Both the position numbers and the translations under genes were made by a program. Shown here piece after piece: positions 963-34,290 of a DNA stretch of 35,913 bases. Under the pieces are notes generated by a model. It was not told the DNA's origin, searched no databases, and saw nothing but the letters and a program-made list of their open reading frames with translations. The DNA lies in the IMG/VR virus record IMGVR_UViG_3300035216_001289, positions 1 to 35,913 of that record. The stretch is one strand, 5' to 3'. This DNA comes from a virus. Numbering within the stretch: the first letter of the stretch is position 1; every line of letters starts with the position of its first letter.

Positions 963-2507
963 TTAACAATTCCAAGCTCTTAATGATTTAGACAATCTAT
1001 CATCACCAGTATTATTAGAAGGTTTTTGCCTCTTTCGCATTCCCTTCATTCTTGCACAAAAACTTTTCCTGCGAGGATTACCAACTTTTTTACTAGGTGC
1101 TTTCAGATCACTACCAGGATTTTCTGCTTCATAAGACTTACGTCCCTTCTCATTAAGACCACCAGACTTACTCTTACCCGATTTTTTAGTCCAGGCAGCA
1201 CCCTCTTCAAGTTCACTCTTCCAATCAGACTGTTCAAATCTTACTTTTGGTTTTAATTTTTTCTTACCATCAGGAGAAGGAACAAACACTCCAGTTTCTG
1301 GAGATTTCATGTCTACACTATCAATATCACCATCAACATCGGCATCAATTCTTCTTACTGCTTTTGCCGTAAGTTTCTTCAAGTTACCACCACCGACTTT
1401 AGATTCTTCTTTTTCTTCAGATACACCAGATTTTCTGAGTCTCTTTGCTTGACTCTTATGCATTTCGACTGCTTTATCTAGTTCTTTGGCAATACTTTTA
1501 ACACTTTCAGGATTCTTATGACTCTCATCCATCTTAACTTCTTCTTTCATTTTTTCACGTTTTGCTTTTGCCTTAGCAAGTAATCTTTGTTTTGCTGCTT
1601 CTCTCTCATCTTTGGGAATAGGAGTTACTGCACCAACTTTTTGATCAACATCACCAACATCATATCCTTCCTTCTTTACACAATTATTTACAACTTTACC
1701 AAACATCTTTTTGGTTCCTTTCTTCTCATAACCTTTCCAACACTTTTGTCCCTCATCAATCTGCTCTTGTCCACCTTTAATGGGTTCTGGTTTGATAATA
1801 TCAACGAACTCATATTCCATTGCCTGAAAATCATCTCTCCAATCAGAATACTCTACAGACTCTGACTTATTTCCCCAGTTAGCAGCACCAACCTTACGAC
1901 ACTTTACAAGTGCTCCGGAAGCATATGCAGAAGGCCAAACACTGTATCTACTCTTGACTTTCTTATAACAGGCATCTTTCTCACCTGCCTTTTCTACTAC
2001 AGTTTCTTCTGTCTTCACGTTGATTGCCTTCCCTTTTCTATCTGGATTTGGATCTTGACGTTGCTTTCTACTAAATGCCTTTTTCTCTTCCTTATCGTCT
2101 AAATTTGCGGCCATTTTGCTGGATCCGCATTTTGGTTTTGTGGTTTGTCCTGGTTGTTTGGCACAGGGTTTTCCGGCATATTTACCACCCAATTGAACCC
2201 AACCAGGCTTGCCATCACTAGACCTACTCTTGCCAAACCAGTCACGCAAAGAACTATCACCACTTTTCGATTCACTTACTCCTCCACCATTTCCGCCACC
2301 ATTGCCGTTTCCACCACCATTTCCATTTCCACCATTCCCATTACCGTTTCCACCATTCCCATTACCATTATTATCACTATCTTCTCCAGATTCTTCTCCG
2401 TTTTCTTTGCGAAGATATCCACCAGATGCAATACGATATCCCAGTGGAATTCGTTTACACTTCTTATCAGTATAACAATAATAATATCCTTGCTTACACT
2501 TTTTCAT
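963..2507 (-). CDS. 514-aa mosaic phage protein with Cys-rich N-terminus, Gly/Asn linker, EF-hand-like loop and basic Cys-containing tail
   Basis: No enzymatic function is recognised. The N-terminus (1-30) holds Cys4, Cys11 and Cys17 with aromatic residues. A Gly/Asn low-complexity linker covers about 47-76. Residues 86-160 (DWFGKS, KPGWVQL) resemble the DUF5872 type, and 178-213 hold a Cys/Trp-rich segment (SRYSVWPSAYASGALVKCRK). Residues 254-280 (KCWKGYEKKGTKKMFGKVVN) form a further small motif of a kind I associate with cyanophage proteins. Residues 300-360 are charged and probably helical. DADVDGDIDSVD (388-399) fits an EF-hand/dockerin calcium loop. The tail 445-514 (GRKSYEAENPGS, RRKSFCARMKGMRKR, RAWNC) resembles DUF6321. 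It lies between gp16 and gp17, which are adjacent in T4. A virion or scaffold-associated role is possible but unproven. Family names are from memory. Confidence 0.85.
   Translation of the reverse strand: MKKCKQGYYYCYTDKKCKRIPLGYRIASGGYLRKENGEESGEDSDNNGNGNGGNGNGNGGNGNGGGNGNGGGNGGGVSESKSGDSSLRDWFGKSRSSDGKPGWVQLGGKYAGKPCAKQPGQTTKPKCGSSKMAANLDDKEEKKAFSRKQRQDPNPDRKGKAINVKTEETVVEKAGEKDACYKKVKSRYSVWPSAYASGALVKCRKVGAANWGNKSESVEYSDWRDDFQAMEYEFVDIIKPEPIKGGQEQIDEGQKCWKGYEKKGTKKMFGKVVNNCVKKEGYDVGDVDQKVGAVTPIPKDEREAAKQRLLAKAKAKREKMKEEVKMDESHKNPESVKSIAKELDKAVEMHKSQAKRLRKSGVSEEKEESKVGGGNLKKLTAKAVRRIDADVDGDIDSVDMKSPETGVFVPSPDGKKKLKPKVRFEQSDWKSELEEGAAWTKKSGKSKSGGLNEKGRKSYEAENPGSDLKAPSKKVGNPRRKSFCARMKGMRKRQKPSNNTGDDRLSKSLRAWNC
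2281..2372 (-). repeat. Short tandem repeats encoding a Gly/Asn linker
   Basis: Imperfect 9-12 bp units (ccaccatttcc and variants) are repeated in frame inside the 514-aa gene. On the coding strand they read GGN/GGT/AAT codons and give a (GN)n and (GGN)n flexible linker. Units differ at third positions, which suggests that length can change by slippage while the frame is kept. Units are contiguous with no spacers, so this is not CRISPR. Confidence 0.8.
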
Positions 2508-14937: not shown

Positions 14938-16446
14938 TTAGAATTCCAGAATAATTTTGATGTCTTCTTTTTGTCTAGAGTCTCTCTGAACCTCGGGTCT
15001 ATTATCGATATAGATTATAGTGCCCGTCTTTTTATTTATCTCTGGATTTGCAAGACCATTCGTAAAAGTAACTCCCAAATTAATTTGTTTGCTATTCACA
15101 ACTACTACACTACCATTAAGGTTAGTATCAATACTTGAAGAACCTGAACTTTGAGCAAATGTAATATCATTAGTAGAGTTAAATGCTATTATATTTGATG
15201 TACTGGCACTATCTAATTGATCTTCCTTATTTCCAAAACATAATGATCTGTCTTGATAATATTTTAAAACCTTAGTATCAGTATCAAATGATGCCACATA
15301 TCCTTTTGCTCCAGATGTGTCTTGTGTTATTTTTTCTCCAATAACTACGTTTCTAGAAGTTGTTAATCCAACAGCATAAAGAGATGAGAATGCATTTTCA
15401 GTAAAAGTTATTCCAGCTCCAGCAAAAGTTTCGGGATTTTTTATAATACCAACTTGAGAAAATTTAGTATCTATTGGAAAATCTTTAGTCGAATCATCAA
15501 ATCTTGCATACATCAATACTTTATCTGTTCCTAACTCATCATAAATGTTATAACCATGACCTTTTGATGGGGGAATTATAGGAATTAACCTTGAACCTGA
15601 TCCCGAATTAGCACTTAAATCGATAATTCCATAAGTGTACCCTTTTCCACCATTTGTTACAGTAACACTTGTTATTATTCCAGAACTATCTACTGCAATA
15701 GAAACTGTAGCACCACTTCCATCACCTATAATAGATGCTGTACCATTACTGTATCCAGTTCCACCATTTTCAATATATACTGTTTTTATTTGATTATTAT
15801 TAATGTCGGAGTCTCCTCCTTCTCTGATAGTTTGAATATCCGAATTTGTCGAAGTTTCCCAATTATTAGGAACAATAATAAACTCCGTAGAATCAAATTT
15901 AATTACATCTGACGGTGAAATACTGAATAGATATTTCCATCTATATCCATCAGATCCTGCAACTGGAGGTTCTACGTCAGTTTGTGTTGGTTCTATTAGG
16001 GATCCTGTGATGGAAGGATTGCTACCAGAAGAACCATTATCTATACAAATATAAACTTTAAATTCACTTGTAACAATATAATAATTTGAATCATATAGTC
16101 TTACAGTTTTAGATACAGACGATTCATTACCTTGTCGATAATCATGTCTGTACATGTCATAAGGAGTATTTGAAACCCATTGAACTTTTCTTATGACTCT
16201 TCTGGCATTTTCTGCAGTAATCTTCTTACCAAATAAACTAGTATCTCTATAATGAGACAAATATTGAAAATTATCTACAGGATTATTAGTTGTACTTGTA
16301 TTCCAATTATCAGTCCTACCAAATCCAACTGATCCTGGAGTTGGATTTGATAATCCTAAGAAGGCGTAATAAGAATTATTACTGATAGACTCTACAAAAG
16401 AACCAGCATTCAATATTCTAAATTGATCTGTTACGAATGCGGACAT
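14938..16446 (-). CDS. 8: Baseplate wedge protein gp8, enlarged
   Basis: Baseplate wedge subunit. The N-terminus (FVTDQFRILNAGSFVESIS, YAFLGLSNPTPG, then ARRVIRKVQWVSNTPYDMYR) and the central GSDGYRWKYLFSISPSDVIKF are typical of the gp8 family. The length is 502 aa, against 334 in T4. Part of the excess is one or two GxGY units (about 220-275: ENGGTGYSNGTASIIGDGSG and TNGGKGYTYG) inserted in the middle. The family resumes with KVLMYARFDD and runs to a short C-terminal tail (VQRDSRQKEDIKIILEF). It follows gp7 as in T4, but has its own late promoter 18 bp upstream of the ATG. Assignment is firm. Confidence 0.92.
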   Translation of the reverse strand: MSAFVTDQFRILNAGSFVESISNNSYYAFLGLSNPTPGSVGFGRTDNWNTSTTNNPVDNFQYLSHYRDTSLFGKKITAENARRVIRKVQWVSNTPYDMYRHDYRQGNESSVSKTVRLYDSNYYIVTSEFKVYICIDNGSSGSNPSITGSLIEPTQTDVEPPVAGSDGYRWKYLFSISPSDVIKFDSTEFIIVPNNWETSTNSDIQTIREGGDSDINNNQIKTVYIENGGTGYSNGTASIIGDGSGATVSIAVDSSGIITSVTVTNGGKGYTYGIIDLSANSGSGSRLIPIIPPSKGHGYNIYDELGTDKVLMYARFDDSTKDFPIDTKFSQVGIIKNPETFAGAGITFTENAFSSLYAVGLTTSRNVVIGEKITQDTSGAKGYVASFDTDTKVLKYYQDRSLCFGNKEDQLDSASTSNIIAFNSTNDITFAQSSGSSSIDTNLNGSVVVVNSKQINLGVTFTNGLANPEINKKTGTIIYIDNRPEVQRDSRQKEDIKIILEF

Positions 16447-32673: not shown

Positions 32674-32838
32674 ATCTTTGAATCCTCTATCCGTTTTTTA
32701 TATATGAAAACTTTTTTTTTATCATCGTGATATTGAGGTCGGACTTTGGGTCGTTTATAGCTTAAAGTAGTAGGGGGTTTTTATATACGGGGCACGGCAA
32801 CGCATAACATAAGGGGGGCAATCACCCCCCACTGCTGT
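32674..32838 (-). other. 165-bp gene-free gap with T-tracts and a G/C hairpin
   Basis: No convincing frame. It contains a 9-base T run (plus strand, near 32712), TATATAAAA stretches close to the AbrB-like start that could serve as an AT-rich promoter, and the hairpin at 32813-32830. It separates the accessory block from the transition block. Confidence 0.5.
32813..32830 (-). terminator. Possible hairpin terminator after the 85-aa ORF
   Basis: GGGGGG and CCCCCC form a perfect 6-bp G/C stem with a 6-nt loop, 8 bp after the stop at 32839. On the minus strand it is followed by TTATGTTATG, which is only moderately T-rich, so termination efficiency is uncertain. Confidence 0.5.
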
Positions 32839-33378: not shown

Positions 33379-34290
33379 TTATTTGTCTACACTTTGGAAC
33401 TTATTGTTGTTAAAGTTGGCATAACTGAACTGCTCACGATTGACTAACTTAAATGTACCGTACTCATTGGAGTAGACATAACCCTCACCACCGATTGGGG
33501 TCTGTCCGATATATGCCTTTGGACCATTATTACGGCAGAGATAGATAGCGTCCTCTTTGATCGACTTAACTAACAACCAGAAACTGATGAGATTCTCATT
33601 CATAAAGGTCGAAGCAATCACGGGACGATTCTCACGGATACAGGAATTGAGTTCCTGTTTAATCAGTACTGCTTCCTTATCTGATACAAACTCAACGTTC
33701 TGTGCCATAACTTTCGCAAACTGAATTACGTCGTCTAAGTCATGGAATCTCTTCAGTCCGTCATCATAACGACCGGATGCAATCGTTGCCAGAGGTTTCA
33801 CGAACTTACAATAGAATGTGTCTGTGATGATGAAGTTCATCGGGTGTGCGATTGCATCCCTTAAGTCACTCTCTGCTGTGTAGTAAGTATGAGGGGCAAC
33901 GATAATCTCCTCCTCTACAATGTTATCGAACTGATAGGTGATTGTGTTTGGTGTGTATTCATCAGTGCCACCGATTCCGATGAAGTCCCCCTGAAAGATA
34001 CCCCCGTTTTGTGGAAGATAGTCAAGGCAATTATGGAGGATTGCTGCAACGTTGCCCGTGTGGTTCCTATTAATGTCCTGATGAGATTCGTTGATTTTAA
34101 TCTTTACTTTGTTAAAGACGGACTTTGTACCCACGAAGAAATTACCCGATGCAGGATTAGTCCCCCATACGATTGCAGGTGCCCCGTCCATCTTCACTGA
34201 CAGATTACCCTCGTTTCGTAGACAATCAAGAGCACTTAAATCTCCGGTGAGAATGGAATCTTCGGGATGTTCGATGTGCTTATTTTTCAT
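33379..34290 (-). CDS. Ligase/nucleotidyltransferase-like protein (KxDG family)
   Basis: Probable member of the covalent nucleotidyltransferase superfamily (ATP-dependent DNA/RNA ligases), 303 aa. Motif I is KMDGAPAI, with Lys33 as candidate adenylated lysine, Asp35 and Gly36. FQGDFIG (99-105) fits motif III. GGEGYVYS (267-274) with Glu269-Gly270 fits motif IV, and FKLVNREQF (280-288) with Lys281 fits motif V, with the usual short spacing between IV and V. There is no OB-fold or other domain after motif V, so it is a bare core, shorter than T4 DNA ligase (about 490 aa) or Rnl1 (374 aa). RNA or DNA end repair is plausible; the exact substrate is not shown. Its ATG directly abuts the stop of the 25-codon peptide (TAAATG). 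Confidence 0.75.
   Translation of the reverse strand: MKNKHIEHPEDSILTGDLSALDCLRNEGNLSVKMDGAPAIVWGTNPASGNFFVGTKSVFNKVKIKINESHQDINRNHTGNVAAILHNCLDYLPQNGGIFQGDFIGIGGTDEYTPNTITYQFDNIVEEEIIVAPHTYYTAESDLRDAIAHPMNFIITDTFYCKFVKPLATIASGRYDDGLKRFHDLDDVIQFAKVMAQNVEFVSDKEAVLIKQELNSCIRENRPVIASTFMNENLISFWLLVKSIKEDAIYLCRNNGPKAYIGQTPIGGEGYVYSNEYGTFKLVNREQFSYANFNNNKFQSVDK

Follow-up and report, generated by a model that had tools for sequence, protein, structure and literature searches.

T4-like cyanophages rank among the ocean's most abundant viruses. In the motif series of the classical ligases, the acidic residue of motif III is usually glutamate, and motif V usually reads K-x-K. Cyanomyoviruses have no recognized homologue of the g30 DNA ligase, so that either the enzyme has gone unrecognized or a host enzyme substitutes for it (PMC2984593), and a stand-alone ligase DNA-binding domain, AAX44695.1, has been noted in such phages (PMC7824862). 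The locus described here encodes a small protein that bears on this question.

The stretch of DNA analyzed (the window) is a 35.9-kb fragment of a T4-like cyanophage, and its nearest relative is Synechococcus phage S-SKS1 (87% identity over 96% in the comparison with window positions 14938 to 35913). Baseplate and head-closure genes are also encoded in it. The gene of interest is flanked by small phage genes and tail genes and, unlike in some relatives described below, is not part of a replication cluster. Its 303-residue product is a member of PF19782 (DUF6267; E = 5.9e-83, 279.7 bits against a gathering cutoff of 27) and matches phrog_455 (E = 1.6e-127); its S-SKS1 homologue is 93% identical. 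The protein is not an orphan, as DUF6267/phrog_455 is common to hundreds of cyanophages. By tblastn, the family occurs in 470 phage records, nearly all of them T4-like cyanophages of Synechococcus and Prochlorococcus, with the remainder from Pelagibacter phages, Methylophilales phages, and a few others. Members are mostly annotated as hypothetical, Pfam and PHROG give the family no function, and no mention of DUF6267 was found in the literature searched. The sparsely coding stretch between this gene and the tail genes contains a G/C-rich hairpin, GGGGGGTGATTGCCCCCC (window positions 32812 to 32830), which is terminator-like by its pattern.

An initial annotation described a minimal ligase-like nucleotidyltransferase with a complete motif set. 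The open reading frame and the strings KMDG, FQGDF, EGYVY (residues 269 to 273), and KLVNR are present exactly as it reported (Table 1). Motifs I, III, IV, and V do follow in order, but the set departs from the standard one in having an invariant Asp in motif III, a single Lys in motif V (KLV), and neither motif VI nor an OB fold. Two elements had been overlooked: G54-T-K56-S-V-F-N60, which is probably motif Ia, and, at the position of motif IIIa, a strand with the invariant H134. The long spacer between motifs III and IV, put at about 165 residues, measures 167 and ranges from 158 to 249 across the family, compared with 105 in T4 Rnl2 (GE at 98 to 99, EG at 204 to 205). As also annotated, the protein stops 18 residues past motif V (residue 285), and the structural model ends there in a helix, without an OB fold. 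Because the domain ends 14 to 19 residues from the motif V lysine in every member, the OB-less minimal form is a feature of the family and not a truncation.

Table 1. Positions of the DUF6267 gene and its sequence features in the window, and of DUF6433 genes in three other loci (given with the locus identifier)
Feature	Position	Strand	Remarks
DUF6267 protein, ligase-like nucleotidyltransferase core	33379..34290	-	303 aa, ATG start
N-terminal HxEHxED signature, residues 5-11	34258..34278	-	H5, H8, E10 invariant
Motif I KMDG, residues 33-36	34183..34194	-	K, D, G invariant (73 representatives); Lys33 is the candidate AMP acceptor
Probable motif Ia GTKSVFN, residues 54-60	34111..34131	-	K56 invariant; in the model, strand 51-54, then helix
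Motif III FQGDF, residues 99-103	33982..33996	-	Q100, D102 invariant; model strand 98-106
Strand at motif IIIa position, IIVAPHTYY, residues about 129-138	33880..33906	-	H134 invariant; strand from the model
Helical insertion IIIa-IV, residues about 183-251	33538..33744	-	Helices 183-198, 204-219, 232-251; N215, K245 invariant
Motif IV EGYV, residues 269-272	33475..33486	-	E, G invariant
Motif V KLVNR, residues 281-285	33436..33450	-	K281, R285 invariant; second Lys of K-x-K missing
C-terminal FSxxNF signature, residues 288-293	33412..33429	-	F, S, N, F invariant; domain end, without OB fold
DUF6433 gene	L499:2410-2844
DUF6433 gene	L497:2534-2965
DUF6433 gene	L275:38440-39063

Conservation was assessed over 73 nonredundant DUF6267 relatives sharing <85% mutual identity and extending down to 29% identity with the window protein. 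K33, D35, G36, P38, K56, Q100, D102, H134, and N215 are invariant in all 73 representatives, as are K245, E269, G270, K281, R285, F288, S289, N292, and F293; K33, D35, G36, D102, E269, G270, K281, and R285 are fixed in a 66-row alignment (A1) as well. The positions assigned to ligase motifs I, Ia, III, IV, and V thus count among the fixed residues, and Lys33 and Glu269, whose variation among homologues would have told against the initial annotation, are invariant. Composition-preserving shuffles produced the ordered motif pattern in 12 of 20,000 cases, a result that by itself is no more than suggestive; conservation is far stronger evidence that the motifs exceed chance. Run over 1,360 open reading frames of at least 200 amino acids from the loci examined, the same pattern recovered DUF6267 members, two true ligases, namely T4 gp30 (the same open reading frame in two loci) and the ligase of Pseudoalteromonas phage XG4, and two other open reading frames.

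The AlphaFold2 model of the window protein, built from 66 family members, has a pLDDT of 92.3 and a pTM of 0.87. Motif I follows a strand (residues 29 to 33), and motifs III, IV, and V are each located on a strand or next to one, as expected for this fold; three long helices are inserted between IIIa and IV. In a Foldseek search of the PDB, the best five matches are DNA ligases (S. solfataricus, Thermococcus, and P. furiosus enzymes and NHEJ and ligase III complexes), followed by T4 Rnl2, capping enzyme 1p16, and LigA. The resemblance is remote, given that the scores are weak (best E value of 0.05, probability of 0.54, TM score of at most 0.33 on the query); the main unrelated matches near the top, carbonic anhydrases, have a probability of 0.02. 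The predicted fold nevertheless appears to be related to that of the nucleotidyltransferases, and these best solved matches, together with the invariant motifs, support the ligase-like core that had been proposed. Among the viral models of BFVD, the matches ranked beneath the DUF6267 family itself include many RNA and DNA ligases, as well as a 446-residue protein of phage PA5oct (A0A4Y5JUK8; E = 3e-6).

Sequence comparisons returned less. No link from DUF6267 sequences to solved structures was found, hhalign gave no significant match to T4 Rnl1, Rnl2, or gp30, and no alignment was returned against a wide set of bacterial Rnl2 proteins. Pfam ligase families do not appear among the matches listed (25 families) for 66 DUF6267 members, and the window protein has no HMM match to PF01068, PF09414, PF09511, or PF01653. 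Since the motifs are invariant, the fold matches ligases weakly, and the profile comparisons are not significant, DUF6267 is most likely a very divergent OB-less nucleotidyltransferase of the ligase superfamily. We regard it as highly probable that the protein has the ligase fold and belongs to the ligase/capping superfamily.

The stand-alone domain AAX44695.1 is a member of DUF6433, a family present in 476 phage records. The predicted structure of one member (pLDDT of 79) has as its best PDB match the DNA-binding domain of T4 ligase, 5wfy (probability of 1.00, TM scores of 0.69/0.76), with DNA ligases next, and DUF6433 is predicted to be a free-standing DNA-ligase DNA-binding domain. Structure comparison is the only link, as hhalign of DUF6433 against T4 gp30 and the XG4 ligase gave nothing; with the XG4 protein as the query, no relatives were found in bacterial genomes. 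In S-PM2 and S-WAM1, the DUF6433 gene comes immediately after that for RNase H, and in no genome viewed is it adjacent to the DUF6267 gene. The product of T4-GC 314, the gene after DUF6433, was considered as a candidate for the absent OB part, but visual inspection spoke against it: it is short, with a Lys-rich tail and no motif VI seen.

Each of the 10 phages with DUF6267 that were checked has DUF6433 as well. The ATP-dependent DNA ligase family PF01068 was not found in nine of these 10 genomes, the exception being XG4, and PF09511 (Rnl1 type) is absent from the same nine, including S-SKS1. PF09414 is absent from seven of the eight DUF6267 genomes tested and PF01653 from all eight. T4 and IME13 present the reverse, a gp30-type ligase with both DUF6267 and DUF6433 missing. 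Nine of the 10 genomes form one related group, so the shared presence of the two families partly reflects common descent and is weak evidence; XG4 is the independent case. That phage (L085, PP712099.1) encodes DUF6267, DUF6433, a PF01467/HIGH protein, and a full ATP-dependent DNA ligase, and it also carries Rnl1- and Rnl2-type RNA ligases, an unusual collection for a single unannotated genome. With one complete DNA ligase and a pair of RNA ligases in the same genome, DUF6267 would not be the sole ligase of XG4. This gene set therefore supports the association of DUF6267, DUF6433, and PF01467 and weakens the idea of DUF6267 as a needed substitute; strict replacement of gp30 is contradicted, as XG4 has both.

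In many other members of the family, the gene lies near replication genes. The uvsX/recA and gp41 helicase genes immediately precede the DUF6267 gene in S-PM2, P-RSM6, Melnitz-2, and HTVC008M, and in syn9 it comes after gp41. In S-PM2, DUF6267 and a HIGH (CTP_transf_like) nucleotidyltransferase form a single fusion protein, and in syn9 and P-RSM6 the HIGH domain is the next gene. Among IMG/VR loci, 51 of 63 S-PM2-like cases have the fusion, and 39 of 45 syn9-like ones have the two close together on the same strand; the link is found in none of 80 window-like and two of 77 P-SSM2-like loci, where DUF6267 stands apart. The active-site motifs of the HIGH domain are intact (GRFNPP...GH and a SASKxRK-like string), its nearest relatives, below cutoffs, are nicotinate/nicotinamide nucleotide adenylyltransferases (NadD/NMNAT), and a PF01467 protein is present in 10 of the 10 DUF6267 phages checked. 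The initial annotation had allowed for an end-repair enzyme or a nucleotidylating effector; the genomic surroundings favor replication or repair, and a HIGH-nucleotidyltransferase partner, over an effector.

Several annotations around these genes deserve comment. The HIGH nucleotidyltransferase of S-SKS1 (HQ633071.1, 72585 to 72893) lies inside a stretch without an annotated gene (71984 to 73234). The DUF6267 protein of metaG-MbCM1 (JN371769.1, 145359) is named NrdB ribonucleotide reductase A subunit, and a short S-PM2 protein associated with the HIGH domain (L086:7521-7796) is matched by phrog_4808 ("ribonucleotide reductase alpha subunit"); both names are likely errors. Over its C-terminal approximately 85 residues, a DUF6321 protein in the window (963 to 2507, minus strand) has matches to several distinct PHROG families; the HIGH/DUF5824 protein of Melnitz-2 contains related modules (phrog_727, 38880, and 28131). 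From these matches, the segment looks like a mobile C-terminal module.

Our preferred, and still tentative, explanation as a whole is that DUF6267 is an OB-less covalent nucleotidyltransferase that provides, in T4-like cyanophages, the catalytic component of a split ligase. XG4 is the main evidence against it, and a host ligase is able to take the place of g30 (PMC2984593). Its direct basis is the motifs, their invariance, the fold resemblance, the co-occurrence, and the lack of a recognizable ATP-dependent DNA ligase in nine of 10 genomes. We infer the adenylation, the substrate, the pairing with DUF6433, and the role of the HIGH domain as follows. Lys-AMP would form by attack of Lys33 on the ATP (or NAD+) alpha-phosphate, with Asp102, Glu269, Lys56, and Lys281 shaping the nucleotide and metal site; AMP would then pass from Lys33 to a nucleic-acid 5'-phosphate, and sealing would follow. 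In T4-like cyanophages, DUF6267 would form the catalytic half of the nick-sealing enzyme and the separately encoded DUF6433 the DNA-binding half, and a nucleotide cofactor may be supplied or recycled by the NadD-like HIGH nucleotidyltransferase that two clades carry either fused to DUF6267 or near it. Action on nucleic-acid ends is, on balance, the expected activity; that DUF6267 is the core of a split DNA ligase, with DUF6433 as its DNA-binding half, is a more doubtful proposition. It is very improbable that T4-like cyanophages swapped gp30 for a two-gene ligase (DUF6267 plus DUF6433) that uses NAD+, with the NMN-adenylyltransferase-like partner remaking NAD+ from the released NMN.

Other readings account for parts of the evidence. 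The same HIGH partner could indicate a nucleotidyltransferase that modifies a small molecule, an RNA 5' end, or a protein (cofactor metabolism, capping, or NMPylation) and not a ligase, as the frequent fusion and same-strand proximity, the intact HIGH motifs, the NadD/NMNAT resemblance, and the presence of PF01467 in all 10 phages would suggest; yet the window-like and P-SSM2-like clades have lost the connection, and the resemblance of DUF6267 in both sequence and fold is to ligases and a capping enzyme, leaving this reading rather unlikely. We consider somewhat less likely again an Rnl2-style RNA-repair ligase, working by itself on nicked tRNA or on other RNAs cut in the course of infection. 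As in Rnl2, DUF6267 does start almost at motif I and has no OB fold, its motif III and IV strings resemble those of Rnl2, the Foldseek alignment to Rnl2 covers about the whole protein, and the genomes tested from the cyanophage group yielded no known RNA ligase. Against this, the profile comparison with Rnl2 is not significant, the loci viewed show no RNA-repair partner next to the DUF6267 gene, and XG4 is already equipped with enzymes of the Rnl1 and Rnl2 types. The weak Foldseek E values, the nonsignificant profile matches, and the Asp of motif III would also fit motif convergence toward the ligases in a protein that is catalytically inactive or unrelated to them, but it is precisely the catalytic-type residues that stay invariant down to 29% identity, and the top structural matches are concentrated in one superfamily, so we judge this quite improbable.

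If the split-ligase explanation is true, it gives a function to a family known only as DUF6267. The family is found in nearly all T4-like marine cyanophages and could supply a portion of the ligase thought to be missing from them. With a ligase-like core encoded near replication genes in many cyanophages and a separate ligase DNA-binding domain, the question of the missing ligase becomes testable with two small proteins.

Compared with known systems, DUF6267 shares with the T4 Rnl2 family (PF09414) the motif order, a motif I near the N terminus, the EGYV of motif IV, and the lack of an OB fold. It differs in the Asp of motif III, the single Lys of motif V, a longer helical insertion between motifs III and IV, and the lack of the Rnl2 C-terminal domain. 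The strings around motifs III and IV (QGDFIGIGG and EGYV, versus FGEFAGPG and EGYV in Rnl2) look more like those of Rnl2 than those of gp30. With gp30-type ATP-dependent DNA ligases (PF01068), the likeness is structural, as the best PDB matches are DNA ligases, but DUF6267 has no DNA-binding domain of its own, no OB fold or motif VI, and no HMM match; its genomes encode as a stand-alone protein the domain matching the T4 ligase DNA-binding domain. Within PF19782, some members are fused to the HIGH nucleotidyltransferase, whereas the window member is unfused. The PA5oct protein (L584:814-2151) has KIDG, EGYV, and KIVDK..F motifs, comparable to those of DUF6267, and a SREG motif, but is longer, differs in the region between the motifs, and matches weakly in sequence (hmmsearch E value of 0.006); this jumbo phage protein is a remote relative that could bridge DUF6267 to the classical ligases. 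DUF6267 is thus probably a ligase-superfamily core that stands outside every named ligase family.
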